Below are positions 2,132 to 28,464 of a stretch of 64,000 bases of DNA, piece after piece. The translations under genes were made by a program, and so were the position numbers. Source of the DNA: Streptomyces sp. NBC_01788 (GTDB taxonomy: Bacteria; Actinomycetota; Actinomycetes; Streptomycetales; Streptomycetaceae); contig NZ_CP109090.1 of NCBI RefSeq assembly GCF_035917575.1, forward strand, positions 2,232,001-2,296,000, given 5' to 3'. Within the stretch, counting starts at the first letter, position 1. Each line of letters starts with the position of its first letter. The notes beneath the pieces were generated by a model. That model searched no databases. It worked only from the letters and a program-made list of their open reading frames with translations, and was not told the DNA's origin.

Positions 2132-2164
2132 TCGGTTTCCTTCTTCCAGGGACGGCCTCGGATC

Positions 2165-5099: not shown

Positions 5100-5330
5100 G
5101 TGGGCCTGTCCTCGGCCGAGGAAGTCGTCCCGGTGGTCCTCGGCCCGGCGCGCGAAGGGGCGGGCGGGGGTGCCGGTGATCTCCTCGACGGTGTGCGTGA
5201 TCTCCGGGGGTACGCCACGGTGGACTCGAGGGTCTTCAGCAGGCCCTGGAGCGGGTGCGGCGGCAGGTGCGGGGAGAGCTCGGCGGCCCACACGGCCGGC
5301 ACAGGCGCCCGGAAGCCGAGTCCCGGCACC
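5100..5330 (-). pseudogene. Frameshifted C-terminal relic, possibly NmrA/SDR-like oxidoreductase
   Basis: Read leftward, one frame gives VWAAELSPHLPPHPLQGLL then KTLESTVAY; the adjacent frame continues with VPPEITHTVEEITG and TPARPFARRAEDHRDDF. Joined, this resembles the C-terminal end of NmrA-type NAD(P)-binding proteins, which often finish with TGRPARTFAEFARDH-like text. The switch falls at about 5205-5218, where loss of seven bases from a GCGTACG-type direct repeat would explain it. There is no matching N-terminal domain upstream and no stop right after the motif, so this looks like a decayed fragment. Family assignment is from pattern only. Confidence 0.4.
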
Positions 5331-5547
5331 CCCCCCCACCGACCTACGGCCGCCCGCCCGGCACCGGTGCCCCCGTGCCGCGACACGGCATCCCCGACGC
5401 CGCCCGCGTCGAGCGGCCCGTCGCCCCGGCGACCGCAGGCGCCACCCCGGGGCATCGGACGGCCGGTGGTGGCCGCGCCGCACACCTCGCCCGGTCGGCA
5501 TCGGTGACTGGACGCCGCGTCCCGACGTCACCGACGACCAGCGGACG

Positions 5548-5692
5548 CCCGGCCGTGCGGGCGGATGACCGGCGGCGCCCGGCCGTGCGGGCGGATGACC
5601 GGGGCGCCCGGCCGTGCGGGCGGACGACCGGCGGCGCCCGGCCGTGCGGGCGGACGACCGGCGGCGCCCGGCCGTGCGGGCGGACGACCGGC
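5548..5692. repeat. 30-bp GC-rich tandem repeat, about 4.8 copies
   Basis: Units begin with CCCGGCCGTGCGGGCGGA at 5548, 5578, 5607, 5637 and 5667. Copy 2 is 29 bases long, the others 30, so any reading frame through the array shifts; this argues against coding. Copies 1 and 2 carry GGATGACC where copies 3-5 carry GGACGACC. No unique spacers separate the units, so it is not a CRISPR array. Confidence 0.9.
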
Positions 5693-5861
5693 ACTGGCGC
5701 CTTCGCACTGCGCACCGGTGCCGACATCGCCCGCGGCCGACGGCCCGCCGCCACTCCGGCGGCCGCAGGCAGCAGCCGGGGCCGACCGGGCGTCGGCGGC
5801 GACGCCACGCGCGCCGCCGCCGGCGGGGCCGGAGGACGGCGGGCGCGGGACGGGTTCCGGG

Positions 5862-8366: not shown

Positions 8367-8483
8367 GGACGCCATGCTGCCTGATGGCCGGTGCCGGGCA
8401 CGAGGGGGTGTCGCCGACGGTCTCGGGACTTTGCGGTCCTCGGGGGGCGCGTTGGGCGGCGCGCGGGGCCCGGGGGGCCGGCG

Positions 8484-8831
8484 TCAGGTCGCCGGGATCT
8501 CGCCGTTGCCCGCGTCCTCGGCGATGCGCTCATGGTGGCGGATGACCTCCGCGATGATGAAGTTCAGGAATTTCTCGGCGAACGCCGGGTCCAGTTTGGC
8601 GTCCTCGGCGAGGGCGCGCAGCCGGGCGATCTGCCGGGCCTCGCGGCCCGGGTCGGCGGGCGGCAGCTGGTGGGCGGCCTTGAGGTGGCCGACCTGCTGG
8701 GTCGCCTTGAACCGCTCGGCGAGCATGTGGACGACGGCCGCGTCGATGTTGTCGATGCTGTCGCGCAGCCGCGCGAGCTCCTCCTGGACGGCGGGGACGG
8801 CGTCACCGGTACCGGTGTTGCTGATGGTCAT
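8484..8831 (-). CDS. Chorismate mutase, AroQ type
   Basis: 115 residues, all-helical. LARLRDSIDNIDAAVVHMLA, ERFKATQQVGHLKA and the distal RQIARLRALAED contain the Arg, Lys and Glu residues typical of AroQ active sites. It converts chorismate to prephenate, the branch step to Phe and Tyr. There is no fused dehydratase or dehydrogenase and no signal peptide, so it is a stand-alone cytoplasmic enzyme. The start at 8831 (MTISNTGTGDAV) was chosen because the long upstream open frame has no family similarity. It competes with TrpE, encoded later in the window, for chorismate. Confidence 0.9.
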   Translation of the reverse strand: MTISNTGTGDAVPAVQEELARLRDSIDNIDAAVVHMLAERFKATQQVGHLKAAHQLPPADPGREARQIARLRALAEDAKLDPAFAEKFLNFIIAEVIRHHERIAEDAGNGEIPAT

Positions 8832-8990
8832 GGGCGCCCACCCTACGGTGTGGGCGGTGCTCGGACGGTGAGCGTCCGACGGGTGACGCACGGAGGCCGC
8901 GGGCGCGACGGGGGTGCGGGCACGGGGCGGAACGAGGACTCGCGCGCATAAAGTGGGAGAGGGTTCAGGGCCGTCTTTGGGGGTTCGGAC

Positions 8991-9890
8991 GTGGCGAACG
9001 GCGGACCGGTGGTGCACGGCTACCCGCATCTGGAGACGGTGCGGGCGGCGATCACCGCGCTCTACAAGCGGCTCACGTACGGCACGGTGCAGACGTTCGC
9101 GGCCAGCGTGGCGCCGGCCGACGTCGCCTTCTGCGACACCGACGACCTGCATCTGGGGGCCCAGCGCGTGGCCCACGAGCTGGTCGGCCACTACCGGCTG
9201 CCGGACGCCCGCATGATCGTCGGCTTCCGTGAGATGACGCACGCGGCGAGCGTCGAGCTGGCGGACGGCCCCGAGTACTTCGTGGAGCTGAACGACCGTT
9301 TCCGCACCCACCGCCGGGACATCGGCGCGGCCCTCGCCCACGAGGTGGCCCACGTCTACCTGCACCGCCTGGACCTGTCCTTCCCCGGCACCCGCGACAA
9401 CGAGATCCTCACGGACACGGTGGCGGCGTATCTGGGCGCGGGCTGGCTGCTTCTCGACGCCTTCCGGGAGGACGGCGTGTCGTCGCAGAAGCTCGGCTAC
9501 CTCACTCCGGAGGAGTTCGGCTACGTGCTGGCCAAGCGGGCGCTGGTGTTCGGCGAGGACCCTTCGACGTGGTTCACCAGCCCGCAGGGCTACGAGGCGT
9601 ACGTCGAGGGCATGGCCCGGGCCCGCCGTGACGAGCAGCAGCCGCCCCTGACGGCGGCGGGCTGGGCGGGCCGCCGCCGGTACGCCCGCGACCGCCGGCA
9701 CGCCCAGGACCACGGCCGGGAGCCCCTTCCGCAGGCGGAAGCGCCGTACTCGTTCAGCTCCGGGGGCCGCGAGCCGCTGCGGGTGTCCTTCTCCTGTCCC
9801 ACCTGCCACCAGCGCATCAGGGTCCCGGTCGGGGGCCGTATGCGCGCCCGGTGCGCCCTGTGCCGCACGGTTCTGGAGTGCGACACCTGA
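8991..9890 (+). CDS. Putative zinc metallopeptidase with C-terminal zinc ribbon
   Basis: 299 residues from a GTG start. HEVAHVYLH at 117-125 is an HExxH motif, and DNEILTDTVAAYLGAG shortly after offers a third ligand, as in small minimal zincins. The last 35 residues contain CPTCHQ and CALC, two CxxC knuckles that form a zinc ribbon. No signal peptide or membrane segment is seen, so it should be cytoplasmic. The substrate is unknown. The gene is divergent from chorismate mutase, with about 160 bases between, and is followed by the rhomboid gene on the same strand. I do not recognise a named family beyond the metallopeptidase motif. Confidence 0.75.
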   Translation: MANGGPVVHGYPHLETVRAAITALYKRLTYGTVQTFAASVAPADVAFCDTDDLHLGAQRVAHELVGHYRLPDARMIVGFREMTHAASVELADGPEYFVELNDRFRTHRRDIGAALAHEVAHVYLHRLDLSFPGTRDNEILTDTVAAYLGAGWLLLDAFREDGVSSQKLGYLTPEEFGYVLAKRALVFGEDPSTWFTSPQGYEAYVEGMARARRDEQQPPLTAAGWAGRRRYARDRRHAQDHGREPLPQAEAPYSFSSGGREPLRVSFSCPTCHQRIRVPVGGRMRARCALCRTVLECDT

Positions 9891-10033
9891 GCCGGTCCTG
9901 ACGCTGTTCCGAGCCCTTCGCGATTCCGGGATCACTGGCCCCACCTTTACCATCCGTCACAGCAGTTCGCTATTTTGTTCGCTGCCGTCCCCACCGGCTC
10001 AGCCTTGTCCCCGCGTTCAACGAGGAGCCGGCC

Positions 10034-10954
10034 GTGGATGCCGAGTCCGCAGTCACCACCTGCTACCGCCACAGCAGGGCGGAGTGCCATGTCCGCTGCG
10101 TCCGCTGCGACCGGTACATCTGCCCGGACTGCATGCGGGAGGCCTCTGTCGGCCACCAGTGCGTGGAGTGCGTGAAGGAGGGCGCCCGGTCGGTGCGGCA
10201 GGCGCGGACGGCGTTCGGCGGCCGGATCAACGCGGTGCCGGTCGTGACCTACGTCCTCATGGGGCTCAACATCCTCGCCTACCTGGGCGAGTTGGTGCGC
10301 CCGGCGCTCGTGGACCGGTTCGGGATGCTCGGGCGCGGTCTGGCGGGGACCGACGGCGTGCACTACCTGTGGGACTACCCGTACGGCTCCGACGTGCACG
10401 CCGAGGGGCTGGTCGGCGGCGAGTGGTACCGGCTGCTGACCGGCGCGTTCCTGCATATGCCGGCCACCGAGGGGACGTTCGGCATCCTGCACATCGTGAT
10501 GAACATGGCGGCGCTGTGGAGCACCGGCCGGGTGGTCGAGGCGCAGTTGGGCCGCGCCCGCTACCTCGCCCTGTACCTGCTGTCGGCGCTCGGCGGCTCG
10601 GTCCTGGTCCTGCTGATCGACCCGGACGCGCTGACGGTCGGCGCGTCCGGCGCGATCTTCGGTCTCGGCGCCGCGTACTACGTCATGGCCCGCCGGCTGG
10701 GCTACGACATGAACGCCGTCAACCGGTACATCGGGGGCCTGCTGCTGTGGCTGGTGGTCTCGGCCGCGCTCACGTCCTGGCAGGCGCACCTGGGCGGTCT
10801 GCTGACGGGCGGGCTGGTGACACTGGCGTACGCGTACGCGCCGCGCGGAGGCCGTCGCACCCTGGTCCAGGCGGGCGCGTGCGTGGCCCTGCTGGTCCTG
10901 CTCGTGGTGCTTGCCTGGGCGAAGGTCTCGGAACTGTCGGGAGGGGCGGCCTGA
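10034..10954 (+). CDS. Rhomboid-family intramembrane serine protease with zinc-finger N-terminus
   Basis: 306 residues. The first 50 residues carry paired Cys/His (C10, C18, C22, C25, C30, C33, C43, C46) like a B-box zinc finger. Six or more membrane segments follow, with the catalytic pair GASG (S205) and WQAHLGG (H252), plus the HIVMNM segment of the rhomboid core. It cleaves membrane proteins within the bilayer; substrates are unknown. The GTG at 10034 has GAGGAG 6 bases before it. The stop is 23 bases before the chitosanase start, so the two may be co-transcribed. Confidence 0.92.
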   Translation: MDAESAVTTCYRHSRAECHVRCVRCDRYICPDCMREASVGHQCVECVKEGARSVRQARTAFGGRINAVPVVTYVLMGLNILAYLGELVRPALVDRFGMLGRGLAGTDGVHYLWDYPYGSDVHAEGLVGGEWYRLLTGAFLHMPATEGTFGILHIVMNMAALWSTGRVVEAQLGRARYLALYLLSALGGSVLVLLIDPDALTVGASGAIFGLGAAYYVMARRLGYDMNAVNRYIGGLLLWLVVSAALTSWQAHLGGLLTGGLVTLAYAYAPRGGRRTLVQAGACVALLVLLVVLAWAKVSELSGGAA

Positions 10955-10977
10955 CCAGGGCCGTACGGGTATCTGTC

Positions 10978-11883
10978 ATGAGACGTTCTGGAATATTGCT
11001 TCTTGCGGCCGCTCCGGTTCTCGTGCTGGCGGTGCTGCTCGCCTTCGATCCGCGGGACCCGGAGCCGTCCCCGGCGAAGCGGCACTCGGCCGCGGACGAG
11101 TCCCGCGAGGACACCAGGAGGCGGGCCGAACGGCTGGAGGAGCTCCAGGACGACAAGGTGGTCGCCGAGGCGCCGCCGGGGCTGGCCGCGCCCGCGAAGA
11201 AGGAACTCGCCCAGCAGCTCGTGGCGAGCGCCGAGAACGCCACGCTCGACTGGCGCGGCACCTACGGCCACATCGAGGACGTCGGCGTCGGCGACGGCTA
11301 CACCGCGGGGATCATCGGCTACTGCACCGGCACCCACGACCTGCTCACCCTGGTCGAGCGCTACACCAGGGCCCACCCGGACAACGGCCTCGCCCCGTAT
11401 CTGCCCGCGCTGCGCAAGGTCGACGGCACCGACTCCCACGAGGGCCTGGACCCGGGCTTCACCGCGGCCTGGAAGGCGGAGTCGGAGCGTCCGGCCTTCC
11501 GCAAGGCGCAGGAGCGGGAGCGCGACCGCTCCTACTTCGGCCCGGCCGTCCGTCTCGCCAAGCTCGACGGCCTGGGCACACTGGGCCAGTTCATCTACTA
11601 CGACGCGATGGTCTTCCACGGCCCCGGCGTCGACGAGGACGGCTTCTACGCCCTGCGCGAGCGTGCCCTGAAGGAGGCCGACACCCCGGCGGCGGGCGGC
11701 CGGGAGAAGACCTATCTCGACATCTTCCTCGACATGCGCCGCGAGGCCATGGAGGCCCGTGGGACGAACCGTGACACCAGCCGTATCGACACCGCCCAGC
11801 GGCAGTTCCTGTACGACGGGAACATGGATCTGAAGACGCCGCTGGTGTGGAAGGTGTACGGGGAGACCTACAAGGTTCCCTGA
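10978..11883 (+). CDS. GH46-family chitosanase, membrane-anchored or secreted
   Basis: 301 residues. MRRSGILLLAAAPVLVLAVLLAF is a signal/anchor, followed by a charged linker to about residue 75. The catalytic domain starts at LAQQLVASAENATLDW, where E86 matches the general acid Glu of GH46. The next loop reads IEDVGVGDGYTAGIIGYC; from memory the well-studied S. sp. N174 enzyme reads IEDIGDGRGYTAGIIGFC, so its catalytic Asp40 position holds V104 here and an Asp (D106) sits two residues later. The family hydrolyses chitosan. Activity or cleavage mode may therefore differ from typical chitosanases. It converges with gltD. Confidence 0.88.
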   Translation: MRRSGILLLAAAPVLVLAVLLAFDPRDPEPSPAKRHSAADESREDTRRRAERLEELQDDKVVAEAPPGLAAPAKKELAQQLVASAENATLDWRGTYGHIEDVGVGDGYTAGIIGYCTGTHDLLTLVERYTRAHPDNGLAPYLPALRKVDGTDSHEGLDPGFTAAWKAESERPAFRKAQERERDRSYFGPAVRLAKLDGLGTLGQFIYYDAMVFHGPGVDEDGFYALRERALKEADTPAAGGREKTYLDIFLDMRREAMEARGTNRDTSRIDTAQRQFLYDGNMDLKTPLVWKVYGETYKVP

Positions 11884-11931
11884 GTCCTCGAAACTTGGAC
11901 CTTGGGCCTTGGAGCTCCGGGACATGCAGCA

Positions 11932-11969
11932 GCGCCTGCCCTGTGTCCGGTCGGGGACTGGGCAGGCGC
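11932..11969. terminator. Terminator between chitosanase and gltD
   Basis: Arms GCGCCTGCCC (11932-11941) and GGGCAGGCGC (11960-11969) pair perfectly; the interior also pairs through GTCC/GGAC. It sits in the gap between two convergent genes. Confidence 0.75.
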
Positions 11970-11981
11970 CGCCTCGGGGGG

Positions 11982-12000
11982 TCTGGGGGTGTCCCCCAGA
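11982..12000. repeat. Short G/C palindromic element
   Basis: TCTGGGGG-TGT-CCCCCAGA, an 8-bp-arm hairpin with a 3-base loop, in the chitosanase-gltD gap. It resembles the outer part of the longer palindromic element found before gltB and inside the his operon. A further imperfect hairpin follows at 12003-12028. Confidence 0.6.
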
Positions 12001-12064
12001 TATCCCGCCCACACGCCTTTGTGCGGGACGTACATGAGTGACCGTCAGGTCACAGTCCTGGCCG

Positions 12065-18137
<6,073 letters not shown>

Positions 18138-18497: not shown

Positions 18498-18541
18498 TGA
18501 CGCACTTGTGCGACTGACAGCGCACAAGTTCCGGTGCGTCA
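18498..18541 (-). terminator. Terminator of the VIT-family gene
   Basis: Inner stem ACTTGTGCG (18504-18512) with CGCACAAGT (18521-18529); an alternative outer pairing TGACGCAC / GTGCGTCA uses 18498-18505 and 18534-18541 and includes the stop codon of the VIT gene. It separates that gene from the gltB upstream region. Confidence 0.7.
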
Positions 18542-19270
18542 TCCTACGGCGGCACCGAACACGGTGCCCAGCGCGTAGGTCACGCCGGCGGCGGCACCAC
18601 CCAGGGCGAGCTGCCGCAGACCGCTGTACCACCAGGTCCGCGCCGTCACCCTGGCCACCACCGCGCCGCAGGCGAACAGTCCCAGGAGGGCGAGCAGCAA
18701 GGCCGGCCACAGCACGGTGGCCCCCAGCAGGTACGGCAACACGGGCAGGAGCGCGCCGAGCGCGAACGAGCCGAACGACGACACGGCGGCGACCAGCGGG
18801 GAGGGCAGGTCGCCGGGGTCGATGCCCAGCTCCTCCCTGGCGTGTATCTCCAGGGCCTGCTCGGGGTCCTTCGACAGCTGCCGGGCAACCTCCTGGGCGA
18901 GTCCGGGCTCCACTCCGCGCGAGACGTACAGGGCGGCGAGCTCCCGCTCCTCGTCCTCGGGGTGCTTGCGCAGCTCGCGGCGCTCGACGTCCAGCTCGGC
19001 CTCGACCAGCTCACGCTGCGAGGCGACGGAGGTGTACTCGCCGGCGGCCATGGAGAAGGCACCCGCGGCCAGGCCCGCGAGACCGGTGAGGACAATGGTC
19101 TCCCGGCCCAGCGCACCGCCCGCCACACCGGTCATCAGGGCGAGGTTGGAGACCAGGCCGTCCATCGCGCCGAAGACCGCGGGGCGCAGCCAGCCACCGT
19201 TCACGTCGCGGTGCGTGTGGTTGTCGCGGTGCGCCTCGTGAAGCGTCGCTTCGGTGTCGATGATGGCCAT
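18539..19270 (-). CDS. VIT1/CCC1-family iron or manganese transporter
   Basis: 243 residues. Membrane segments: AVFGAMDGLVSNLALMTGVAG, IVLTGLAGLAAGAFSMAAGEYTS, then a charged cytosolic loop rich in Glu (about 85-150, with repeated EEREL/EVARQ motifs, the proposed metal-binding domain), and three more C-terminal segments. The MAAGEYTSVAS signature after segment two is characteristic. Members export or sequester Fe2+ or Mn2+. The start at 19270 is preceded by GGGGGACCACGCC. An iron-box-like sequence 32 bases upstream suggests control by a DmdR/IdeR regulator. It is divergent from the four-glycohydrolase operon. Confidence 0.9.
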   Translation of the reverse strand: MAIIDTEATLHEAHRDNHTHRDVNGGWLRPAVFGAMDGLVSNLALMTGVAGGALGRETIVLTGLAGLAAGAFSMAAGEYTSVASQRELVEAELDVERRELRKHPEDEERELAALYVSRGVEPGLAQEVARQLSKDPEQALEIHAREELGIDPGDLPSPLVAAVSSFGSFALGALLPVLPYLLGATVLWPALLLALLGLFACGAVVARVTARTWWYSGLRQLALGGAAAGVTYALGTVFGAAVG

Positions 19271-19301
19271 GGCGTGGTCCCCCTGAGAGCTGTGCGAGAA
19301 C

Positions 19302-19320
19302 TTAGGTAAGGCTGACTTTT
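19302..19320. promoter_or_regulatory. Iron box (DmdR/IdeR-type operator) before the VIT gene
   Basis: TTAGGTAAGGCTGACTTTT matches the Streptomyces DmdR1 consensus TTAGGTTAGGCTCACCTAA at 14 of 19 positions, including the TTAGGT and AGGCT cores. It lies 32-50 bases upstream of the VIT start in an otherwise AT-richer stretch, so it is well placed to govern that promoter. Confidence 0.65.
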
Positions 19321-19383
19321 GGACGCGTTCTACTTTTCGACAACACCGAATCTACGCTCGAAATTTCACGGCCGCCAGCAAGG

Positions 19384-19402
19384 GAAGGCTGGGCTAACCT
19401 GC
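19384..19402. promoter_or_regulatory. Weaker second iron-box-like site
   Basis: GAAGGCTGGGCTAACCTGC matches 12 of 19 consensus positions, mainly the GGCTxACCT right half. It lies mid-way in the divergent region, 64 bases beyond the first site, and could serve either the VIT gene or the glycohydrolase operon. It may be chance. Confidence 0.35.
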
Positions 19403-19551
19403 GGTTTTGCACTGGTGTGCTCATCCGTGAATCAGCTCGCACATATGTCGTACGGGTGATGGTGAGGTGCCGGAGGCTGCACCGGGCCCCGCTCCGGGGA
19501 CAGTTCCGCTGAGGGCTCCCGCCCCTGCGGGGCGTCCCGAGAGGAGAGCCC

Positions 19552-20655
19552 GTGGGATCGACCATCCGTGCCCCGCAGGCCCCGGCGTCTGCCCCGGCCG
19601 TCTCGCGCGAACGGGCCCGCGGCGCGCTGCTCGGCCTCGCCGTCGGCGACGCGCTCGGGGCGCCCGCGGAGAACCTGACGCCGTCCGAGATCCGCGCCCG
19701 CTGGGGCCGGATCACCGGCTACGTCGCCGACCGGCCGGCCGGCACGGACGACACCGAGTACGCGATCTTCTCCGGGCTGCTGCTGGCCCGGTACGGCCAC
19801 GCGCTCACCCCGGCCCGGGTGGAGGCGGCCTGGCGCGGGTTCATCGCCGACCGCGAAGAGGGTCCCTTCCGCGGAGCCGGGTTCAGCGAGCGGGGCACGC
19901 TGGAGAACCTTCGCCGGGGGCTGGCCGCCCCTGTCTCCGCCCAGCACCGGCACGCCTGGAGCGACGGGCTGGCCATGCGGGCGGCGCCGTTCGGGGTGTT
20001 CGCGGCCGGGCGGCCCGTCGAGGCGGCCCGGCTGGTGGCGATCGACGGCTCGGTCAGCCACGAGGGCGAGGGCCTCGACGGCGGCCGGGCGGTGGCCGCC
20101 GGGGTCGCGGCGGCGATGACGGGCGCGCCGCCGGTCGCGGTCGTGGCCGCCGCCCTCGCCGTCGTCCCCGACGACTCCTGGACGGCCCGCTCGCTGCGCC
20201 GGGCCACGGCCGCCGCCCACCGCGGCGAACACGCGGTCCGCTCCGCGGTGGTCATCGGCAGCTATCCCTGGTCCGACCTGGCACCCGAGGCGGTCGCCCT
20301 CGCCTTCGGCGCGTACGCCGCCGCCGACGGCGACTTCCGCGAGGCGGTCCTCACCGCCGTCAACATGGGCCGCGACGCCGACACCACGGCGGCGGTCGCG
20401 GGCGCGCTGGCCGGTGCGACGCAGGGTCTCCCGGCCATTCCGGACGAGTGGGCGCGGGCCATCGGTCCCGTCCGGGGCAGCTGCCTGCCGTCGATGGCGG
20501 GCCGGCACGTACTGGACGTCGCCGACCTGCTGGTGACCGCGAGCGCTTCCGCCGGACTCCCCCGTCACGCAGTCCCCGCACGACTTGAGGCACCCCCCGT
20601 TCCCGACCGCGCGGCCTACGCCCTCACCGCGGGCGACGAGGAGACCCGGACATGA
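19552..20655 (+). CDS. ADP-ribosylglycohydrolase family protein, paralogue 1
   Basis: 367 residues from a GTG with GAGAGGAGAG just upstream. The N-terminal GALLGLAVGDALGAPAE and GTDDTEYAIFSGLLL, and the C-terminal MGRDADTTAAVAGALAGA, hold the Asp/Thr set that binds the two Mg ions in ARH/DraG enzymes. The family removes ADP-ribose from proteins or cleaves related N- or O-ribosides; the substrate here is unknown. The stop overlaps the next start by four bases (ATGA). It opens a six-gene run of which four genes share this fold, and its metal-site motif looks complete. Confidence 0.85.
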   Translation: MGSTIRAPQAPASAPAVSRERARGALLGLAVGDALGAPAENLTPSEIRARWGRITGYVADRPAGTDDTEYAIFSGLLLARYGHALTPARVEAAWRGFIADREEGPFRGAGFSERGTLENLRRGLAAPVSAQHRHAWSDGLAMRAAPFGVFAAGRPVEAARLVAIDGSVSHEGEGLDGGRAVAAGVAAAMTGAPPVAVVAAALAVVPDDSWTARSLRRATAAAHRGEHAVRSAVVIGSYPWSDLAPEAVALAFGAYAAADGDFREAVLTAVNMGRDADTTAAVAGALAGATQGLPAIPDEWARAIGPVRGSCLPSMAGRHVLDVADLLVTASASAGLPRHAVPARLEAPPVPDRAAYALTAGDEETRT

Positions 20656-21893
20656 GCCATCAGACCGAGATGCCGGTCACCGACCACCCGGCACGCCGCG
20701 ACCACCCGCTCGCGACGCCCGGCCCGCACGCACGCCCCGAGCCACGGGTCCCCCGGCGGCCAAGGGGAGAGGCTCTCGTGACGCGGCGCATCGAAGGGCT
20801 GTTGCTGGGGCTGGCCGCCGGGGACGCCGCCGGGTGGCCCGCCGCGCGCCACCGGGCCGCCCGGCTGCCGGAGTGGACCCGGCGCCTCACCCGGGAGCTG
20901 GACACCTTCGCCGAGCTGAACGCGACGACGACGCTCCCGGTGCCCATCGCGCTGAACCAGCCGCCCGAGCCGCTGTGCCTCGGCCCCTCCGACGACGCCG
21001 AGTGGGCGGTGTTCACCGCAGAGGCCCTGTTGCGGGCGGGGGACGACGAGGCGTTCGGCGACCTCGGCCGGGAGCGGCGAGTCCGGGCCGCGATCGACCT
21101 GACCTGGAACGCCGTCGCCGGCGAGGTCGCGGCGGCGGCCGAACGCGCCCCCGAGGCCGGGTCGGTGGTGCTGCCGCTGCGCGCCCGTATCTCCGTGCGG
21201 GCCGGGCTCGGCAATCTGGCGACCGGACTGCGCCCGCCCGCCAGCGGGCACGACAACCCGCACTACTTCGACGACGCCGCCTGCGTACGGGCCTGTGTGC
21301 TGGCCACCGCCCACCCGGGCGACCCCCGGCGCGCGGCCGGCCTGGCCGAGTTCGACGCCCGCTACACCCAGGACGGCGACGGCGTCCACGGGGCCCGCGC
21401 GATGGCGGCGGCGCTCGCCGAGGCGCTGGCGGGCGCGGAGGTCGGGGCGTGCGTCGCGGCGGCGCTGGCCGAACTGCCCGAGCGGACGGAGATCGGCCGC
21501 AACGCCCGGCAGGCACTGCGCCTGGCCGGGGACACCGAGAGCGCGTTCGCGCTCGTCCCGCTGCTCGAGCACCGGATCGTCGACCACGTCTACAGCTACG
21601 GCATCGCCGCCGCCGAGACCGTACCGGTCGCCCTCGCGCTGGCCACGGCGGCGGAGGGCCGGATCGCCGAGGCACTGCCTGCCGCGGCCTGCCTGTCCCG
21701 GATCGCCGACTCCGCCCCGGCCCTGACGGGCGCGCTGACCGGTGCGCTCGGCGGCGGCGAGGCGATCCCGGCGTCCTGGCGCGAGGCCTGCCGCACCCTG
21801 TCCGGCTGCGTGCTGCCCCGCCTCACCGGCACCGATCTGGTGGAACTCGCCGGACTCCTGGAAGCCGCACAACCGCCCCGTCCAGGAGGATGA
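20652..21893 (+). CDS. ADP-ribosylglycohydrolase-fold protein, paralogue 2 with degenerate site
   Basis: 413 residues. The opening 45 residues are a low-complexity Pro/Arg lead; the domain begins IEGLLLGLAAGDAAGWPAA. The first metal motif reads PSDDAEWAVF where relatives have TDDTxxA, and the C-terminal motif reads SRIADSAPAL where relatives have GRDADTTA, so two of the expected ligands are replaced. The fold is kept but catalysis is doubtful; it may bind ligand or scaffold its partners. It overlaps its upstream neighbour by four bases and its stop is within the ribosome-binding region of paralogue 3. Confidence 0.75.
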   Translation: MSHQTEMPVTDHPARRDHPLATPGPHARPEPRVPRRPRGEALVTRRIEGLLLGLAAGDAAGWPAARHRAARLPEWTRRLTRELDTFAELNATTTLPVPIALNQPPEPLCLGPSDDAEWAVFTAEALLRAGDDEAFGDLGRERRVRAAIDLTWNAVAGEVAAAAERAPEAGSVVLPLRARISVRAGLGNLATGLRPPASGHDNPHYFDDAACVRACVLATAHPGDPRRAAGLAEFDARYTQDGDGVHGARAMAAALAEALAGAEVGACVAAALAELPERTEIGRNARQALRLAGDTESAFALVPLLEHRIVDHVYSYGIAAAETVPVALALATAAEGRIAEALPAAACLSRIADSAPALTGALTGALGGGEAIPASWREACRTLSGCVLPRLTGTDLVELAGLLEAAQPPRPGG

Positions 21894-21901
21894 TTCCGGG
21901 C

Positions 21902-23089
21902 ATGACGCCCAAAGGAGAACAGAGCCGAGGCGCGGTCCGGGACGCGGACCTGGAGGAGCGGATCACCGGCGCACTCGTGGGAGCGGCCGTCGGCGACGCG
22001 CTCGGCGGCCCCGTAGAGGGCTACTCCCCCGACCAGATCCTCGAGCGCCACGGCGGCCGCGTGCACGGCGTCGTCGGCCCCTGGCACGGCGAGCAGTGGC
22101 GCACCGCCCGCCCCATCGCCCCGTACCACAAGGGCGACGGCCATGTCACCGACGACACCTTGATGACACACGCCCTGGTCCGGGTGTACGCACGCGTCCG
22201 CGACCACCTCGACGCCTACGCGATCGCCGACCACCTGGTGCCCGACCTGATGACGAAACCGCGCTGGATCCCGGAGCTCCAGGCCGAGGCGCTGCCGCTG
22301 CACCGGGTGTTCCTGGCGGAGAAGTGGCTGGTGGCGCGGCTGCACTACGGCCACGTCGACCCGCGCGAGGCCGGCGCCGGAAACATCGTCAACTGCGGTG
22401 CCGCGATGTACATGGCGCCTGTGGGCCTGGTCAACGCGGCCAACCCGGCGGCCGCGTACGCCGAGGCCCTGGACGTCGCGGGCGCCCACCAGTCCTCCTA
22501 CGGCAGGGAGGCGGCGGGCGTCCTGGCGGCCGCGGTGGCGGCGGCCTGCGCGCCGGGGGCGAGCCCGGACTCGGTGGTGGCGGCGTGCCTGTCGCTGGCG
22601 AAGGACGGCACCCGCGCCGCGATCGAGCGGGTCTGCGAAGTGGCCCGTAATTGCACGGACTTCGAGTCGGCGCTCGGCCCGCTGCGGGAGGCGGTGGCAC
22701 CGTACGACACGGTCGGGCCGGACTACCGGAACCCGTCCCTGGGCGCCCGCCGCCCCTCCCGTCTGCACGCGATCGAGGAACTGCCCGTCGCGCTCGGCAT
22801 GTTGGCGGTGGCGCGCGGCGACTTCCGGCAGGCCGTCCTCGGCGCGGTGAACTACGGCCGCGACTGCGACTCCATCGCGACGATGGCCGGGGCGCTGGCG
22901 GGCGCGCTGGGCTCGCCCGTCCCGGAGGACTGGGCGAAGACGGTGGCCGAGGCCAGCCGCCTGGACCTGTGGGAACCGGCGCGCACGCTGGCCGGGGTGA
23001 CCCGGGAGATCTTCGAGAAGGACGTACGGCGGCGGCGCGCCCACGAGCGGGCGTTCGCCGGGATGGGAGGTCCGGAATGCTCCGACTGA
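21902..23089 (+). CDS. ADP-ribosylglycohydrolase family protein, paralogue 3
   Basis: 395 residues. ITGALVGAAVGDALGGPVEG and HVTDDTLMTHALV near the N-terminus and NYGRDCDSIATMAGALAGA near the C-terminus supply the full acidic metal site. The start at 21902 is chosen because AGGAGG ends 12 bases before it; an in-frame ATG at 21890 overlaps that Shine-Dalgarno sequence. It is the most conventional-looking of the four paralogues, with a central NCGAAMYMAPVGLVNAANP segment also seen in family members. Function is a glycohydrolase acting on an unknown ADP-ribosyl or ribosyl substrate. Confidence 0.85.
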   Translation: MTPKGEQSRGAVRDADLEERITGALVGAAVGDALGGPVEGYSPDQILERHGGRVHGVVGPWHGEQWRTARPIAPYHKGDGHVTDDTLMTHALVRVYARVRDHLDAYAIADHLVPDLMTKPRWIPELQAEALPLHRVFLAEKWLVARLHYGHVDPREAGAGNIVNCGAAMYMAPVGLVNAANPAAAYAEALDVAGAHQSSYGREAAGVLAAAVAAACAPGASPDSVVAACLSLAKDGTRAAIERVCEVARNCTDFESALGPLREAVAPYDTVGPDYRNPSLGARRPSRLHAIEELPVALGMLAVARGDFRQAVLGAVNYGRDCDSIATMAGALAGALGSPVPEDWAKTVAEASRLDLWEPARTLAGVTREIFEKDVRRRRAHERAFAGMGGPECSD

Positions 23090-24468
23090 CCTGGGTCCAG
23101 CCGGAGGACCTGCTCGGCCACGAGCTGCGCCAGGCGGTGCAGGACGGCCGCGAACCGTCGGCGATCGCCGCCCGCTGGCGCGCGGCGGGCGGTCCCGAGG
23201 CCCCGGCCCGCGCGGGCGCGTCCCCTGGGCGCGCCTCCCGCTATCTGCGCCTCCTGGCGGAGGACCTGCTGGACGAACTGGCCGAACTGCCCAGCCGGCT
23301 GGCGGACGCGGAACCGACAGACCCGGCCGCGATCGAGGCGCTGTGCCCGAACTGGCCGAAGCAGCCGGTAACTTCCGCCCCCTCGGTGACTGCCGAGCGC
23401 CTGGAGGCGGCCTGGCTCGGCCGGGCCGCGGGCTGTCTGCTGGGCAAGCCCGTGGAGAAGCTGCCCCTGACCGGCATCCGCCAACTCGCCCGGGCCACCG
23501 GCAACTGGCCCCTGCACACCTGGTTCACCGCCAGGGGCGTACCCGAGGACCTGGCCGTCGCCTACCCCTGGAACCGCCGCTCGGCGGCCCACTGTCTGGC
23601 CGAGAACATCGACGGCATGCCCGAGGACGACGACCTCAACTACCCGCTGCTCAACCTCCTTCTCCTGCAGCGGCACGGCAAGCGGTTCACGACCGCCGAC
23701 ACCGCGCGCCTCTGGCTGGACGAACTCCCCGCCGGCCGTACCTTCACCGCCGAACGCGTCGCCTACCGCAACCTGCTGCTCGGCATCGAACCCCCGCACA
23801 CCGCCCGGCACCGCAACCCCTTCCGCGAGTGGATCGGCGCCCTGACCCGTGCCGACGTGCACGGCTGGACCAACCCCGGCGACCCGGCGGCCGCGGCCGC
23901 GCAGGCCCACCGCGACGCCGCCCTGACGCACACCGCGAACGGCGTCTACGCCGCGATGTTCGCCGCCGCCGTCATCGCCGCCGCGGCGACCGGAACCGAC
24001 GACGTCCACACCTGCCTGGCCACGGGCCTGACCGTCGTGCCGCCCGGCTCCCGGCTCGCCCGCGCCGTGCGCCACGCCGTCCGACTCGCGCGGGAACACG
24101 AGGACTTCGACCGGGTGGTGGACGAACTCCACGCCGTCCACGCCGACTTCCACTGGGTGCACGCCGTGCCCAACACCGCGCTGATCGCCGCCGCGCTGAC
24201 CCACGCCGACGGCGACTTCACCGGCTCCGTCTGCCGTGCCGTCTCCGGCGGCTGGGACACCGACTCGAACGGTGCCACGGCCGGCGGTGTCGCGGCCCTC
24301 CTCGCCGGTTCCCCGGGCGCGCTGCCCGACCGCTGGACGGCACCGCTCAAGAACCGGCTGGCCACATCGGTGGGCGACTTCGACGGCACCGGATTCGACA
24401 CCCTGGCCCACCTCACGCACCTGGAGGCCTCCCGTCCCATGAGCGACGCCGACGGGCCCACCTCATGA
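23077..24468 (+). CDS. ADP-ribosylglycohydrolase family protein, paralogue 4
   Basis: 463 residues. About 100 residues of helical N-terminal extension (MLRLTWVQPEDLLGHELRQ) precede the domain, LEAAWLGRAAGCLLGKPVEKL. The metal motifs differ from the other copies: MPEDDDLNYPLLNL in front and SGGWDTDSNGATAGG behind, the latter being the classic DTDS form. It starts 13 bases inside paralogue 3, with GGGAGG ahead of the ATG, and overlaps the CoA-transferase start by four bases. It belongs to the longer ADP-ribosylglycohydrolase subfamily often seen in sugar-related clusters; the substrate is unknown. Confidence 0.82.
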   Translation: MLRLTWVQPEDLLGHELRQAVQDGREPSAIAARWRAAGGPEAPARAGASPGRASRYLRLLAEDLLDELAELPSRLADAEPTDPAAIEALCPNWPKQPVTSAPSVTAERLEAAWLGRAAGCLLGKPVEKLPLTGIRQLARATGNWPLHTWFTARGVPEDLAVAYPWNRRSAAHCLAENIDGMPEDDDLNYPLLNLLLLQRHGKRFTTADTARLWLDELPAGRTFTAERVAYRNLLLGIEPPHTARHRNPFREWIGALTRADVHGWTNPGDPAAAAAQAHRDAALTHTANGVYAAMFAAAVIAAAATGTDDVHTCLATGLTVVPPGSRLARAVRHAVRLAREHEDFDRVVDELHAVHADFHWVHAVPNTALIAAALTHADGDFTGSVCRAVSGGWDTDSNGATAGGVAALLAGSPGALPDRWTAPLKNRLATSVGDFDGTGFDTLAHLTHLEASRPMSDADGPTS

Positions 24469-25682
24469 CCACGCCCCACGACACCGCGCCCGACGCAGGC
24501 GGCCCGCTCGCCGGTCTGCGCGTGCTCGACCTCGCCACCCTCTTCGCCGGTCCCATCGCCGCCACCATGCTCGGTGACTTCGGCGCCGAGGTGATCAAGG
24601 TCGAGCACCCGGTGAAGCCGGACCCGTCCCGGGGCCACGGGCCGTCGAAGGACGGGGTCGGCCTGTGGTGGAAGCTGCTCGGCCGGAACAAGCGCACCAT
24701 CACGCTGGACCTGTCGAAACCCGGTGGCCGCCGCACCCTGCTGCGGCTGGCCGCCGGCGCCGACGTGATCGTCGAGAACTTCCGGCCCGGCACCCTGGAG
24801 AGGTGGGAGCTCGGCTGGCCGGAGCTGTCGGCGGCCAATCCGCGCCTGGTGCTGGCCCGGGTCACCGGGTTCGGCCAGTTCGGCCCGTACGCCTCCCGGC
24901 CCGGGTTCGGCACCCTGGCGGAGGCGCTGAGCGGGTTCGCCGCGATCACGGGTGAGCCGGACGCGCCCCCGACGCTCCCGCCGTTCGGGCTCGCCGACTC
25001 GATCGCGGGCCTGGCCACGGCGTACGCGGTGATGACCGCGCTCACTGCACGGGAGCGCACCGGCGCCGGCCAGATCGTGGACATGGCGATCATCGAGCCG
25101 ATCCTGACCGTCCTCGGCCCGCAGCCCCTGTGGTACGACCAGCTCGGCTACATCCAGCCCCGCACCGGCAACCGCACCCAGAACAACGCCCCGCGCAACG
25201 CCTACCGCACCAGCGACGGCACCTGGGTGGCGGTCTCCACCTCGGCCCAGTCGGTCGCGGAACGCGTGATGCGGCTGGTGGGCCGCCCGGAGCTGATCGA
25301 CGAGCCCTGGTTCGCGAGCGGCGAGGAGCGGGCCGCGCACGCCGACCTGCTCGACGAGGCGGTCGGCGGCTGGATCGCCCGGCACACCCGCACCGAGGTC
25401 CTGGCCGCCTTCGAGAAGGCCCAGGCGGCGATCGCGCCGATCCAGGACGTACGGGACGTGATGGCCGACCCGCAGTACCGGGCCCTCGGCACCCTGACCA
25501 CCCTGCACGACCCGGAACTCGGCCGGATGCGCATGCAGAACGTCCTCTTCCGGCTCTCCGCCACCCCGGGTGCGATCCGCTGGGCGGGCCGCCCGCACGG
25601 CGCGGACACGGACGCGGTGCTGACCGAACTCGGCCTCACCGCGGAGGAGCTGGCCGCGCTGCGTGCGGAGGGCGCCCTGTGA
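24465..25682 (+). CDS. Class III (CaiB/BaiF) acyl-CoA transferase
   Basis: 405 residues, normal length. The N-terminal LAGLRVLDLATLFAGPIAATMLGDFGAEVIKVE segment and the NKRTITLDLSKPGGR and VENFRPGTLERWELG motifs are hallmarks of the family, and GYIQPRTGNRTQNNAPRNAY and the C-terminal GRPHGADTDAVLTELGL are typical too. It moves CoA between carboxylic acids, such as from succinyl-CoA or oxalyl-CoA to a second acid. ATGA overlap with paralogue 4 and GTGA overlap with the lyase place it in the same operon. Together with the lyase it could activate and cleave a hydroxyacid. Confidence 0.9.
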   Translation: MTTPHDTAPDAGGPLAGLRVLDLATLFAGPIAATMLGDFGAEVIKVEHPVKPDPSRGHGPSKDGVGLWWKLLGRNKRTITLDLSKPGGRRTLLRLAAGADVIVENFRPGTLERWELGWPELSAANPRLVLARVTGFGQFGPYASRPGFGTLAEALSGFAAITGEPDAPPTLPPFGLADSIAGLATAYAVMTALTARERTGAGQIVDMAIIEPILTVLGPQPLWYDQLGYIQPRTGNRTQNNAPRNAYRTSDGTWVAVSTSAQSVAERVMRLVGRPELIDEPWFASGEERAAHADLLDEAVGGWIARHTRTEVLAAFEKAQAAIAPIQDVRDVMADPQYRALGTLTTLHDPELGRMRMQNVLFRLSATPGAIRWAGRPHGADTDAVLTELGLTAEELAALRAEGAL

Positions 25683-26536
25683 CGGTCACCGCCTTCTGCC
25701 CGCTCACCTGGCTGTACGCTCCAGGCGACCGCCCGCACGTCGTGGCCAAGGCGCTGGCCTCCGGCGCCGACGTGGTGGTCGTCGACCTGGAGGACGCGGT
25801 CGCCCCGGACCGCAAGGAGTACGCCCGCGCGGCCACCGCCGAGCTGCTGACCGAGCCGCCGCCGGTCCCGGTGCATGTGCGGATCAACGCGGTCGACGGG
25901 CCGCTGGCCGCCGCGGACCTGGCGGCGGTGGCGCCCCGGCCGGGCCTTGCGGGGCTGAGGCTGCCGAAGGTGACGTCCGCCGGGCAGGTCGCCCGGGTCG
26001 CGGCACGGACGGAGACCGCGCAGGGCCCGCCGCCCGCGGACGGTTCGGGGCCTCCGCTGTACGCCCTCCTGGAGACCGCGCTGGCCATCGAGCGCGCCCA
26101 CGTCATCGCCTCCGCGCACCCCGCCCTGCGCGGCATCTCGATCGGCGAGGCCGACCTCCGCGCCGACCTGGGTGTACGGCAGGACTCCGGCCTCGACTGG
26201 TGCCGCGCCCGGGTCGTCGTGGCCGCCCGCGCGGCCGGTCTCGCCCCGCCGACCCAGTCCGTCCACCCCGACATCCGCGATCTGGAGGGCCTGGCGTCCT
26301 CCTGCGCGCACGGCCGCGCCCTCGGCTTCCTCGGCCGCGCGGCCATCCACCCGCGCCAGCTCCCGATCATCGAGCGCGCCTATCTGCCGACCGACCGGGA
26401 GCTGGAGGAGGCCGAGACGGTCGTCAAGGCGGCCACCGCGGAGCGGGGCGCGCAGGCCCTCCCGGACGGCCGCTTCATCGACGCGGCGGTGGTGGCGGCG
26501 GCCCGGCGCACGCTCGCCCTGGCCCGGCGGTGCTGA
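25679..26536 (+). CDS. CitE/HpcH-family CoA-ester lyase
   Basis: 285 residues from a GTG that overlaps the preceding stop. LYAPGDRPHVVAKALASGADVVVVDLEDAV, RINAVDGP, LRLPKV and IGEADLRADLG are the standard TIM-barrel motifs with Mg-binding Glu and Asp. Relatives cleave malyl-CoA, citramalyl-CoA or beta-methylmalyl-CoA. With the CoA-transferase before it, a two-step activate-and-cleave route for a hydroxydicarboxylic acid is reasonable. The link to four glycohydrolase-fold proteins is unexplained. A strong terminator follows immediately, so it is the last gene of the operon. Confidence 0.85.
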   Translation: MTVTAFCPLTWLYAPGDRPHVVAKALASGADVVVVDLEDAVAPDRKEYARAATAELLTEPPPVPVHVRINAVDGPLAAADLAAVAPRPGLAGLRLPKVTSAGQVARVAARTETAQGPPPADGSGPPLYALLETALAIERAHVIASAHPALRGISIGEADLRADLGVRQDSGLDWCRARVVVAARAAGLAPPTQSVHPDIRDLEGLASSCAHGRALGFLGRAAIHPRQLPIIERAYLPTDRELEEAETVVKAATAERGAQALPDGRFIDAAVVAAARRTLALARRC

Positions 26537-26540
26537 CACG

Positions 26541-26574
26541 ACGAGGGCGCCCCGGTGACCCGGGGCGCCCTCGT
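26541..26574. terminator. Strong bidirectional terminator after the CoA-lyase gene
   Basis: A perfect 15-bp stem (ACGAGGGCGCCCCGG, 26541-26555, with 26560-26574) and a 4-base loop. It lies between the convergent CoA-lyase and lgt genes and can stop both. Confidence 0.9.
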
Positions 26575-26595
26575 CCCTGTACGTCCGGCCGGACG

Positions 26596-27603
26596 TCAGT
26601 TCTTGCGAACCGTCTCGGCCCCGTCCTTCCCACCGTCGGCCGCGCCGTCCTGGCCGTCGGGGGACGCGTCGGCGGCCGCGCGCGTGTCCTCGGTGTCCTG
26701 CGCGTCGTCCGAGCCCCGCTCCCGCGCGGGCTTCTCGTCCTCGGCGTCCGTCCCGGCCTCGGCCGTTGCGCTCTCCTCGGCGGACTGCAGGTCCGGCTCG
26801 ACCGTCTCCTCGCGGCCTGGCCGGAGCCGGGCCGAGACGATCATGTAGGCCACGGCCGCGAGGAAGAGGATCAACGCGGTCCAGTTGTTCAGCCGCAGGC
26901 CCAGGATGTGGTGGGCCTCGTCGACCCGCATGTACTCGATCCAGAACCGGCCCGCGCAGTACGCGGCGACGTACAGCGCGAACGCCCGTCCATGACCCAG
27001 CTTGAACCGGCGGTCGGCCCAGATCACCAGCAGCGCGACGCCGACGCACCACAGCGACTCGTACAGGAACGTCGGGTGGTAGTACCCCGGCACGCGGCCG
27101 TCCGCCGAGGACGTGATGCGCAGCGCCCACGGAACGTGCGTCTCCCGGCCGTACAGCTCCTGGTTGAACCAGTTGCCCCAGCGCCCGAACGCCTGCGCGA
27201 TCGCCAGTCCGGGGGCCACGGCGTCGGCGTACGGCGGCAGAGCGATGCCCCGGCGGCGGCAGCCGACCCAGGCACCGAGCGCGCCCAGCGCGACGGCTCC
27301 CCAGATGCCGAGTCCGCCTTGCCAGACCTTGAAGGCGTCGACCCAGTTCCGGCCTTCACCGAAATAGAGTTCGTAGTCGGTGATCACGTGGTAGAGGCGA
27401 CCGCCCACCAGACCGAACGGGACGGCCCAGACGGCGATGTCCCAGGCGGTGCCCTTCTTGCCACCACGCGCGACCCACCGGCGGTCGACGATCCAGAGGG
27501 CGACGAAGAGGCCGACGAGGATGCTGAAGGCGTAGCCGCGGAGCGGAATGGGACCGAGGTGCAGCACACCGCGCGACGGGCTGGGAATGTAGGCAAGTTC
27601 CAT
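26596..27603 (-). CDS. lgt: Prolipoprotein diacylglyceryl transferase
   Basis: 335 residues. Seven membrane segments start with MELAYIPSPSRGVLHLG. Signature residues: GGLGIWGA, the AQAFGRWGNWFNQELYG Lgt signature, and HPTFLYESLW. It attaches diacylglycerol to the lipobox cysteine of prelipoproteins at the membrane. A 70-residue acidic tail after the last segment (rich in Glu, Asp and Ala) is longer than in most bacteria but common in actinomycetes. It is downstream of the DsbA-like gene, 84 bases apart, and ends at the shared terminator. Confidence 0.95.
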   Translation of the reverse strand: MELAYIPSPSRGVLHLGPIPLRGYAFSILVGLFVALWIVDRRWVARGGKKGTAWDIAVWAVPFGLVGGRLYHVITDYELYFGEGRNWVDAFKVWQGGLGIWGAVALGALGAWVGCRRRGIALPPYADAVAPGLAIAQAFGRWGNWFNQELYGRETHVPWALRITSSADGRVPGYYHPTFLYESLWCVGVALLVIWADRRFKLGHGRAFALYVAAYCAGRFWIEYMRVDEAHHILGLRLNNWTALILFLAAVAYMIVSARLRPGREETVEPDLQSAEESATAEAGTDAEDEKPARERGSDDAQDTEDTRAAADASPDGQDGAADGGKDGAETVRKN

Positions 27604-27687
27604 GGCAGGGTCGACGCTACCGCAGCCGGTGCGGCGGCACGGCAAGCGGCCCGGCTACGGGTCCATAACGGGCGGCTCGTGCCTCAC

Positions 27688-28464
27688 TCATTTGCTGGCG
27701 GCCGCTTCCACCATCTGCTTCAGCTTCGCCGGGGTCATCGTCTGGTCCTGGAGGATGTTCTTCCCGTTCAGCAGGACGGTCGGGGTGCCCGAGAAGTTGC
27801 CGGACTGGAAGGCCTGGTGGGACTTGTCGACCCAGCTGTCGTGCGTGCCGTCGCGCACGCACTTGTCGAAGGCCGGGGTGTTCAGGCCGCTCACCTTGCC
27901 CGCGAGCCGGATGAGCTCGTCTTTGTCCGCGAAGGCGTCGTCGGTCTCGTGCGGCTGGTGCTGGTAGAGCACGTCGTGGTAGGCGGGGAACTTGCCGGCG
28001 TCCTGGGCGCAGGCCGCCGCGTTGGCCGCGCGCAGGGAGCCGGTGCCGCCGAGGTTGCCGTCGATCAGTCTGACCAGGTGGTACTCGACCCTGAGCTTGC
28101 CGGCGTCGGTCAGCTCGCGGATCACCGGCCGGTACATCGTCTCGAAGGCCTGGCAGGCCGGGCAGCGGAAGTCCTCCCACACGGTGAGCGTCGACCTGGC
28201 TCCGCCTTGGCCGACCGGGATCGCCAGGCTGTCCTTGCCCTGCGCGCCGGAGGGCGCCACGACCGGGCCGGCGGCGCTGCTGCTCTTGTGCTTGCCGGAG
28301 TTGGCGGCGACCACGCCGATCACCGCCGCCAGGCCCAGGACGCAGACGACGGTCGCGGCCACGATCAGCGTCCGCCGCCGCCTCTCCGTGGCCTTCTGCT
28401 TCTCGCGCTCGGCCGCCAGTCGCTCCCGGGCGCCGCGCTTTCCCTGATGGTTCTTCTCGCTCAC
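27688..28464 (-). CDS. Membrane-anchored DsbA-like thioredoxin-fold protein
   Basis: 258 residues from a GTG. A basic N-terminus (about 30 residues) leads to one membrane segment (TLIVAATVVCVLGLAAVIGVV), then an extracellular thioredoxin-fold domain with the redox motif CPAC in EDFRCPACQAFETM, and the cis-Pro loop GTPTVLLNG. It probably helps form or rearrange disulfides in exported proteins. It starts only 13 bases after the trpA terminator hairpin, so read-through or a promoter inside that hairpin must serve it. The neighbour lgt also acts on exported proteins. Confidence 0.9.
   Translation of the reverse strand: MSEKNHQGKRGARERLAAEREKQKATERRRRTLIVAATVVCVLGLAAVIGVVAANSGKHKSSSAAGPVVAPSGAQGKDSLAIPVGQGGARSTLTVWEDFRCPACQAFETMYRPVIRELTDAGKLRVEYHLVRLIDGNLGGTGSLRAANAAACAQDAGKFPAYHDVLYQHQPHETDDAFADKDELIRLAGKVSGLNTPAFDKCVRDGTHDSWVDKSHQAFQSGNFSGTPTVLLNGKNILQDQTMTPAKLKQMVEAAASK

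Follow-up and report, generated by a model that had tools for sequence, protein, structure and literature searches.

The 64,000-nucleotide stretch of the Streptomyces sp. NBC_01788 genome analysed here (contig NZ_CP109090.1; the window, in what follows, is this whole stretch) carries at 19552-26536 an operon of four different genes of the ADP-ribosylglycohydrolase (ARH) fold, g1 to g4, followed by genes for a class III CoA-transferase (CoAT) and a CitE-like lyase. From sequence comparison we lean, without strong conviction, towards the view that these six genes would be the cytoplasmic enzyme part of an operon breaking down a ribosylated small molecule with a hydroxy-polycarboxylate aglycone. 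In the complete form of the operon, a carbohydrate ATP-binding cassette (ABC) importer would take up the ribosylated compound, and ARH-fold hydrolases would cut the ribosyl bond, with g1 as the catalytic protein, the degenerate g2 as its obligate partner, and g3 and g4 serving other bonds or anomers. A ribokinase would then pass the ribose into the pentose phosphate pathway, CoAT would activate the freed hydroxy-di- or tricarboxylate, and the CitE-like lyase would cleave the resulting acyl-CoA, yielding an oxo acid together with a shorter acyl-CoA. We infer ribose as the sugar, a carboxylate as the aglycone and catabolism as the direction. The component proteins belong to known families; our literature search found no described function for these genes and no description of this system.

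The operon and its forms in other actinomycetes

The six genes of the window operon are the following (for the ARH genes, first and second active-site motif):

19552-20655, + strand: ARH1 (g1); PF03747, 198 bits; motifs TDDTE and RDADTT; both motif-2 Asp residues in 104/104 rows
20652-21893, + strand: ARH2 (g2), degenerate paralogue; PF03747, 121 bits; motifs SDDAE and RIADSA
21890-23089, + strand: ARH3 (g3); PF03747, 168 bits; motifs TDDTL and RDCDSI; motif-2 Asp pair in 105/105 rows
23077-24468, + strand: ARH4 (g4); PF03747, 163 bits over residues 111-413; motifs EDDDLN and WDTDSN; motif-2 Asp pair in 107/107 rows
24465-25682, + strand: CoA-transferase (CoAT), class III (CaiB/BaiF)-like, GFGTLAEA[LM]SG subgroup; PF02515, 408 bits
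25679-26536, + strand: CitE-like (HpcH/HpaI family) acyl-CoA lyase; PF03328, 121 bits

All six open reading frames are intact, lie on the + strand and overlap by 4, 4, 13, 4 and 4 bases, and every family match is above its cut-off (26.2 bits for PF03747, 23.3 bits for PF02515), which bears out the original prediction of a six-gene overlapping operon; the ARH active-site motifs that it quoted are exact. The 4- to 13-base overlaps it described hold as well, and the exception it placed between the second and third paralogues falls away if g3 starts at ATG 21890, which gives an ATGA overlap with g2, rather than at ATG 21902, which leaves an 8-base gap. An ATGA-type g2/g3 overlap was likewise obtained for two relatives, L098 and L099. 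The host genome (8.27 Mb, single contig) has 10 matches to PF03747, one of them partial, and 4 of the 10 are in this operon.

At E < 1e-100, g2 has matches in 30 of 41 genomes of the same genus (its own included) and in 12 of the 109 genomes from the rest of the family, while any match at 1e-3 was found in 68 of 150 family genomes; g2 of Streptomyces sp. NPDC088816 is 93% identical to that of the window. In a class-wide set of 196 genomes, 40 have a g2 match at E < 1e-30. To compare gene order we used 80 named loci, a non-random sample consisting of the best 80 of at least 286 relatives in a contig scan that used a g2 alignment headed by a Microbispora row. These loci come from Streptosporangiaceae, Nocardiopsidaceae, Allokutzneria, Haloactinopolyspora and many Streptomyces. 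Gene order is kept across several actinomycete families; the pathway idea was to fall if the six genes were not conserved together in other genomes, and they are.

The complete form of the operon has 11 genes in the order LacI regulator, two permeases, binding protein, g1, g2, g3, g4, ribokinase (RbsK), CoAT and CitE. All 11 are found in 9 of the 80 loci, and LacI and importer together with g1 to g4 in 33. Judged from one representative per gene, the permeases match BPD_transp_1 and the binding protein matches SBP_bac_1/8, all being of carbohydrate type, though the binding-protein match names no specific sugar; we take the importer to be of the CUT1 type. The regulator is of the LacI family and scores best to RbsR models, below their cut-off (221.5 versus 531 bits). 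The kinase of L078 is a PfkB protein that reaches 310 bits against the TIGR02152 ribokinase model (cut-off 299.65) and stays below the cut-off of a second ribokinase model, NF008353 (276.5 versus 341). The deglycosylation of ribosyl compounds that had been proposed for the operon thus gains support from the ribokinase, the RbsR-like LacI protein and the sugar ABC importer of relatives. We think it unlikely that a pathway of the same type handles a different pentose or furanose, with the 'ribokinase' phosphorylating that sugar: PfkB kinases switch specificity easily, the RbsR match is below cut-off and the binding protein names no sugar, but the L078 kinase does pass TIGR02152, if not NF008353, and those ARH-fold enzymes whose function is established are known to work on ribosyl bonds.

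In Streptomyces the operon tends to sit between the same neighbours, which in the window are as follows:

18539-19270, - strand: VIT1/CCC1-like transporter, divergent upstream neighbour; PF01988, 238 bits; in 43/80 loci
26540-26575, no strand assigned: strong 16-bp hairpin; minimum free energy -42.8 kcal/mol against a shuffle mean of -25.0, z -5.4
26596-27645, - strand: lgt, convergent downstream neighbour; TIGR00544 above cut-off; in 48/80 loci

The VIT1-like gene and lgt are conserved flanks outside the pathway. Upstream of the VIT1 gene, the frame at 13521-18137 (1538 aa) is presumably gltB. The commonest arrangement, in 35 of the 80 loci, is gltB-VIT1-g1-g2-g3-g4-RbsK-CoAT-CitE-lgt; six loci have the window form, which is the same without RbsK. 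A third group, 17 loci that are all from Nonomuraea, reads LacI-permease-permease-binding protein-g1 to g4-RbsK and lacks CoAT and CitE. Six loci have all 11 genes and none of the Streptomyces flanks, five have only LacI, importer and g1 to g4 (three of these on contigs shorter than 14 kb), five end at a contig edge before g2, and the remaining six are single arrangements (L115, L123, L163, L170, L171 and L185).

The window operon is without kinase, binding protein, permease or regulator genes, and it is read most simply as a reduced form at the same chromosomal site, a point that goes beyond the original prediction. Complete operons occupy this site in other Streptomyces, so that loss of importer, regulator and kinase, rather than their never having been gained, is the simplest reading. 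In S. daqingensis (L170) the complete set of 11 exactly fills the interval from VIT1 to lgt, in S. gossypii (L185) the same set lies between gltB and lgt, and in S. smyrnaeus (L163) 10 of the 11, RbsK being the missing one, lie beside gltB and VIT1. RbsK is present in 42 of the 48 loci that have g4, CoAT and lgt. Of the importer and regulator proteins of L170, the binding protein and the first permease were searched for in the window genome, and neither has a close relative there: identity is at most 31% for the former and at most 37% for the latter (33% in the best-scoring match). The genome does have matches of up to 47% identity to the operon kinase of L098, and one ribokinase above the TIGR02152 cut-off is encoded elsewhere. 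With none of these genes in the operon and no close relatives of the searched importer proteins, the window copy would be an enzyme core without import, regulation or kinase. Since importer and regulator are missing from most Streptomyces loci seen, and the kinase too in this lineage, it may act on a compound made or imported by other means.

Other arrangements are rarer. In two loci, L084 and L085, g1 and g2 occur together with LacI and permeases while g3 and g4 are absent; L076 has g1, g2 and g4 with kinase, LacI and ABC genes, and L086 is ordered CoAT-CitE-LacI-permease-permease-binding protein-g3-g4-g1-g2. The L076 locus (1220-17011) is a second ARH cluster of genome G623, running through a kinase, ABC genes, g4, LacI, g1, g2 and an alpha-amylase-like gene, and also containing another ARH-like protein, next to a BPD_transp_2 permease. 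At L079 7992-9572, g2 is apparently interrupted, with two tblastn pieces about 366 bases apart. On the 3' side of the ARH operon in 20 loci (15 of the 17 Nonomuraea loci, L123, L137, L140 and L141, plus L115, which has CoAT-CitE), no immediate next gene is common to more than three loci among the 14 most populous clusters of proteins listed.

An intact and a degenerate ARH paralogue

Both Asp residues of the DxD motif, the second of the two ARH motifs, have a metal-binding role. In g2 the first of them is absent from all 108 rows with a residue at this position (one further row has a gap), and the same Asp is present in every row of g1 (104/104), g3 (105/105) and g4 (107/107). The 109 g2 rows comprise 105 distinct sequences, a few genomes having been entered twice. 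The first motif of g2 is mostly kept, with DD in 108 of 109 rows; g2 of L086 has lost the Asp residues of this motif too (GENIE). This degeneracy, which the original prediction had not described, leaves g2 altered rather than stripped, and g2 would probably have lost its activity.

The degenerate gene keeps close company with g1. In every one of the 101 loci from which both were extracted, the two are consecutive and share a strand. The spacing is between -200 and +300 bases in 86 of these; in the other 15 they are fused (4), overlap by more (3) or stand 304-662 bases apart (8). Only g1 was extracted from three further loci and only g2 from eight, mostly at contig ends or for reasons of extraction. 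No other tested gene lies between g1 and g2 in the 80 loci. In four loci (L111, L143, L167 and L179) the pair forms one open frame, and at least 21 database proteins are g1-g2 fusions, some of them partial (P0127-P0147, the best 21 of 120 rows obtained with the Allokutzneria fusion). On a tree built from 59 g2 domains, 18 fused and 41 separate, 8 changes between the fused and the separate state are needed, at least 7 of them forced by supported branches; each change could be either a fusion or a split, and three of the fused rows are long-branched. Repeated fusion of an intact to a degenerate copy suggests a physical complex, so that g1 and g2 most likely form an active-plus-degenerate heteromer, with g1 as the predicted catalytic subunit and g2 as the predicted partner. 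Of the multi-subunit glycohydrolase that had been suggested, the gene fusions support the g1 plus g2 part alone.

The four ARH proteins are members of PF03747, as are hydrolases that reverse ADP-ribosylation, and S. coelicolor likewise has four consecutive ARH-family genes (SCO2028-SCO2030 in PMC5087735, all four, SCO2028-SCO2031, in PMC9411070), which by numbering and family are very probably orthologues of g1 to g4. In the available text of these papers they are listed as uncharacterised DraG/ARH homologues, with no mention of operon context, partner genes, g2 degeneracy or fusion. A role of the four proteins in reversing protein or nucleic-acid ADP-ribosylation, as suggested for these counterparts and with the metabolic genes incidental, nevertheless strikes us as quite improbable, more so than the use of another sugar. 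It sits poorly with the sugar importer, LacI regulator and ribokinase of the full operon, and the scores are far under the equivalog cut-offs: against DraG (TIGR02662, cut-off 337.05) g1 reaches 76.3 and g3 47 bits, with no match listed for g2 or g4, and against the Tri1 ADP-ribosylarginine hydrolase (NF041672, cut-off 490) g1 reaches 54.3, g2 18.1 and g3 47.4 bits, with none listed for g4. In addition, SCO2028 and SCO2030 are reported in the accessible part of PMC13036486 to have no detectable activity on ADP-ribosyl-uracil, a result that is compatible with riboside breakdown but narrow, as it concerns one linkage.

Recent duplication of one gene as the origin of the four ARHs was rejected on a 79-row tree in which g3 forms a single group. 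In this tree g1, g2 and g4 each need two changes; the extra change stems for g1 and g2 from the fused Allokutzneria protein, entered whole as g1, and for g4 from L076, which the tree places among g4-like rows. Of four other ARHs from the window genome, three have long or unsure positions. The roughly 100 extra N-terminal residues of g4 (window 23077-23390) have no Pfam match and lie outside the aligned part in most of the remoter g4-like matches. Two g4-like ARHs, each 47% identical to g4, lie near a CitE-like gene, one in the genome of the window itself (L093 8634-9770) and one at L089 7075-9357, where methylmalonyl-CoA-mutase-like and acyl-CoA-dehydrogenase genes are also near; we presume that these surroundings may be an ethylmalonyl-CoA region. 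Single g4-like ARHs of other actinobacterial families, one next to sugar-type ABC genes (L090) and one next to a ribokinase-like gene (L091), hint that the metabolic branch of ARHs may extend further.

The CoAT-CitE module and the candidate substrate

The motifs of the CitE-like family (VDLEDAV, VRIN, LLE and IHP) are mostly kept in the lyase among the variants listed for 105 rows, and its scores are under the equivalog cut-offs of both RipC (149.5 versus 375 bits) and CitE (136.9 versus 443 bits). By position in the genome, CoAT and CitE behave as a separable module. In all 12 searched genomes whose ARH locus lacks the pair (10 Nonomuraea, 2 Nocardiopsidaceae), a CoAT with 64-67% identity is encoded elsewhere, each time with a CitE gene within 57 bases. 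In the class-wide set, and at thresholds that we set ourselves (g2 at E < 1e-30, CoAT at E <= 1e-120), CoAT occurs in 39 of 40 genomes with g2 and in 12 of 156 without (Fisher p 2.8e-29, relatedness ignored). Degradation of the acid part after deglycosylation, the second half of the pathway first proposed, stays plausible: the 17 Nonomuraea loci without CoAT-CitE speak against it, and the separate pairs in 12 of 12 genomes speak for it.

What such modules act on may be read from the 27 stand-alone CoAT loci, in which neighbours were named by one representative per cluster. CitE lies within 300 bases of CoAT in 18 of them. The neighbours include an FCD-GntR regulator (11 loci), a TetR regulator (9), an amidohydrolase (8), a DctM carboxylate transporter (5) and MmgE/PrpD proteins in two clusters (9 and 4 loci). 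The MmgE/PrpD and amidohydrolase genes are found mainly in loci without an adjacent CitE and so bear less on the CoAT-CitE pair; taken jointly, GntR, DctM and the CitE family suggest a hydroxy-carboxylate substrate. A Peripla_BP_4 protein, present at L218 7064-8140 and with cluster members in 9 further stand-alone CoAT loci, recurs near CoAT-CitE in loci of the Nonomuraea type.

The most serious rival, to which we would give a real but minor chance, is that the ARHs degrade a riboside whose aglycone is not an acid, such as the ribosyl-nucleosides arising when ADP-ribose or poly-ADP-ribose is turned over, and that CoAT-CitE is a passenger on the same transcript, acting on a separate carboxylate. 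The Nonomuraea operons that stop at ribokinase would fit, as would L084 and L085, where neither g3 and g4 nor CoAT and CitE adjoin g1-g2, LacI and permeases, and the stand-alone pairs with their GntR and DctM neighbours. Against a mere passenger stand the separate pair in every such genome searched, the co-occurrence with g2, and the retention of CoAT-CitE in Streptomyces operons that have no importer or regulator.

Breakdown of a riboside with a carboxylate aglycone, the reading towards which we lean, has its own difficulties. Formyl-CoA transferase has a catalytic Asp; where aligned chains of that type carry it, CoAT has Gly in 109 of 109 rows, and the absence of this Asp makes the chemistry of CoAT uncertain. 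With 17 of 80 loci ending at ribokinase, the operon need not include the acid step. One genome, G600, has g1-g2 and no close CoAT, and 12 genomes have CoAT and no g2. CitE is not beside CoAT in 9 of the 27 stand-alone loci, and the second commonest neighbour there, in 10 of the 27, is the sugar-type Peripla_BP_4 binding protein, which does not indicate a hydroxy-carboxylate, or else indicates a sugar conjugate. Lastly, close relatives of the two importer proteins that were searched for are missing from the window genome, which leaves uptake unexplained there.

Taken together, the ribosyl bond suggested by the ARH fold, the ribokinase and the RbsR-like regulator, and the carboxylate aglycone suggested by CoAT-CitE, would make the substrate a ribosyl hydroxy-acid. 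Ribocitrin, a ribosyl-citrate, offers a speculative candidate in the form of ribosyl-(iso)citrate. Citrate itself needs no CoAT-CitE, which counts against ribosyl-citrate exactly; an unusual isomer or homologue would need them. According to the available text of PMC13136089, ribocitrin was tentatively identified in a Streptomyces by liquid chromatography-mass spectrometry, and its biosynthesis is yet to be established. The full proposal, an as yet undescribed pathway for ribosyl-hydroxypolycarboxylates of the ribocitrin type whose first step is carried out by a novel type of ARH enzyme, a heteromer of active g1 and degenerate g2, on a free small-molecule riboside and not on ADP-ribosylated macromolecules, is doubtful as a whole, and slightly more so than the passenger alternative.

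Control regions, known systems and significance

A strong hairpin follows CitE and the next gene, lgt, is convergent, so that the transcription unit plausibly ends there; the operon end is probably the hairpin at 26540-26575, between the CitE and lgt genes. No sigma-70-type promoter or T-run terminator was found at 18500-27700, an Rfam scan of the window at gathering score found no known RNA or riboswitch, and the fold of the 5' leader is unremarkable (z -1.4). In the spacer between VIT1 and g1, TTAGGTAAGGCTGACTTTT at 19302-19320 is iron-box-like, agreeing with 14 of 19 letters of an iron-box consensus, a score that none of 50 shuffles reached. The best iron-box-like scores in 51 spacers examined range from 10 to 16, many being no better than shuffles, and the comparable sites in spacers of other Streptomyces are variable. 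The site probably belongs to the control of VIT1 and could touch the operon. A role in anti-phage defence was also considered and was rejected, as PADLOC gave no match for any of the six proteins.

Several known systems share parts of this gene set. As described in the available text of PMC10819704, E. coli yegTUV likewise joins an ARH-fold protein (YegU) to a putative sugar kinase (YegV, PfkB-type), a transporter and a repressor (GgaR/YegW), but it has one ARH, a major facilitator superfamily (MFS) transporter and a GntR regulator, and no CoA-transferase or lyase; the paper calls the functions of its genes unknown and links them to glycogen accumulation. The ADP-ribosyl hydrolases DraG, ARH1 and ARH3 have the fold family and the two metal-binding motifs in common with g1, g3 and g4, whereas the proteins described here score below equivalog level, belong in relatives to a sugar-utilisation operon and include a degenerate partner for g1. 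Degradation of itaconate and citramalate uses a CoA-transferase and a CitE-like lyase (RipA/RipC), the same pairing of a class III CoA-transferase with a C-C lyase as here; our operon differs in having no hydratase gene, a lyase under the RipC cut-off, and glycohydrolases. The vertebrate pseudoenzyme ADPRHL1 (ARH2) is, like g2, an ARH member without catalytic residues, but it is an animal heart protein for which the accessible part of PMC10601310 gives no pairing or fusion with an active ARH. Within S. coelicolor, the ARH protein SCO5809 is active on phosphate-linked RNA ADP-ribose, according to the available text of PMC11833690.

The many ARH-family genes of Streptomyces have been read as a sign of lively ADP-ribosylation, as the text available from PMC5087735 has it. 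If four of them belong to an operon for riboside catabolism, the count of ARH genes misleads, and a branch of the ARH fold serves metabolism. In the g1-g2 pair, an ARH enzyme would be tied to a degenerate partner as an obligate subunit, and the repeated natural fusion of the two would make the pair easy to express. The binding protein of the full operon in other families would offer a ready route to the substrate.

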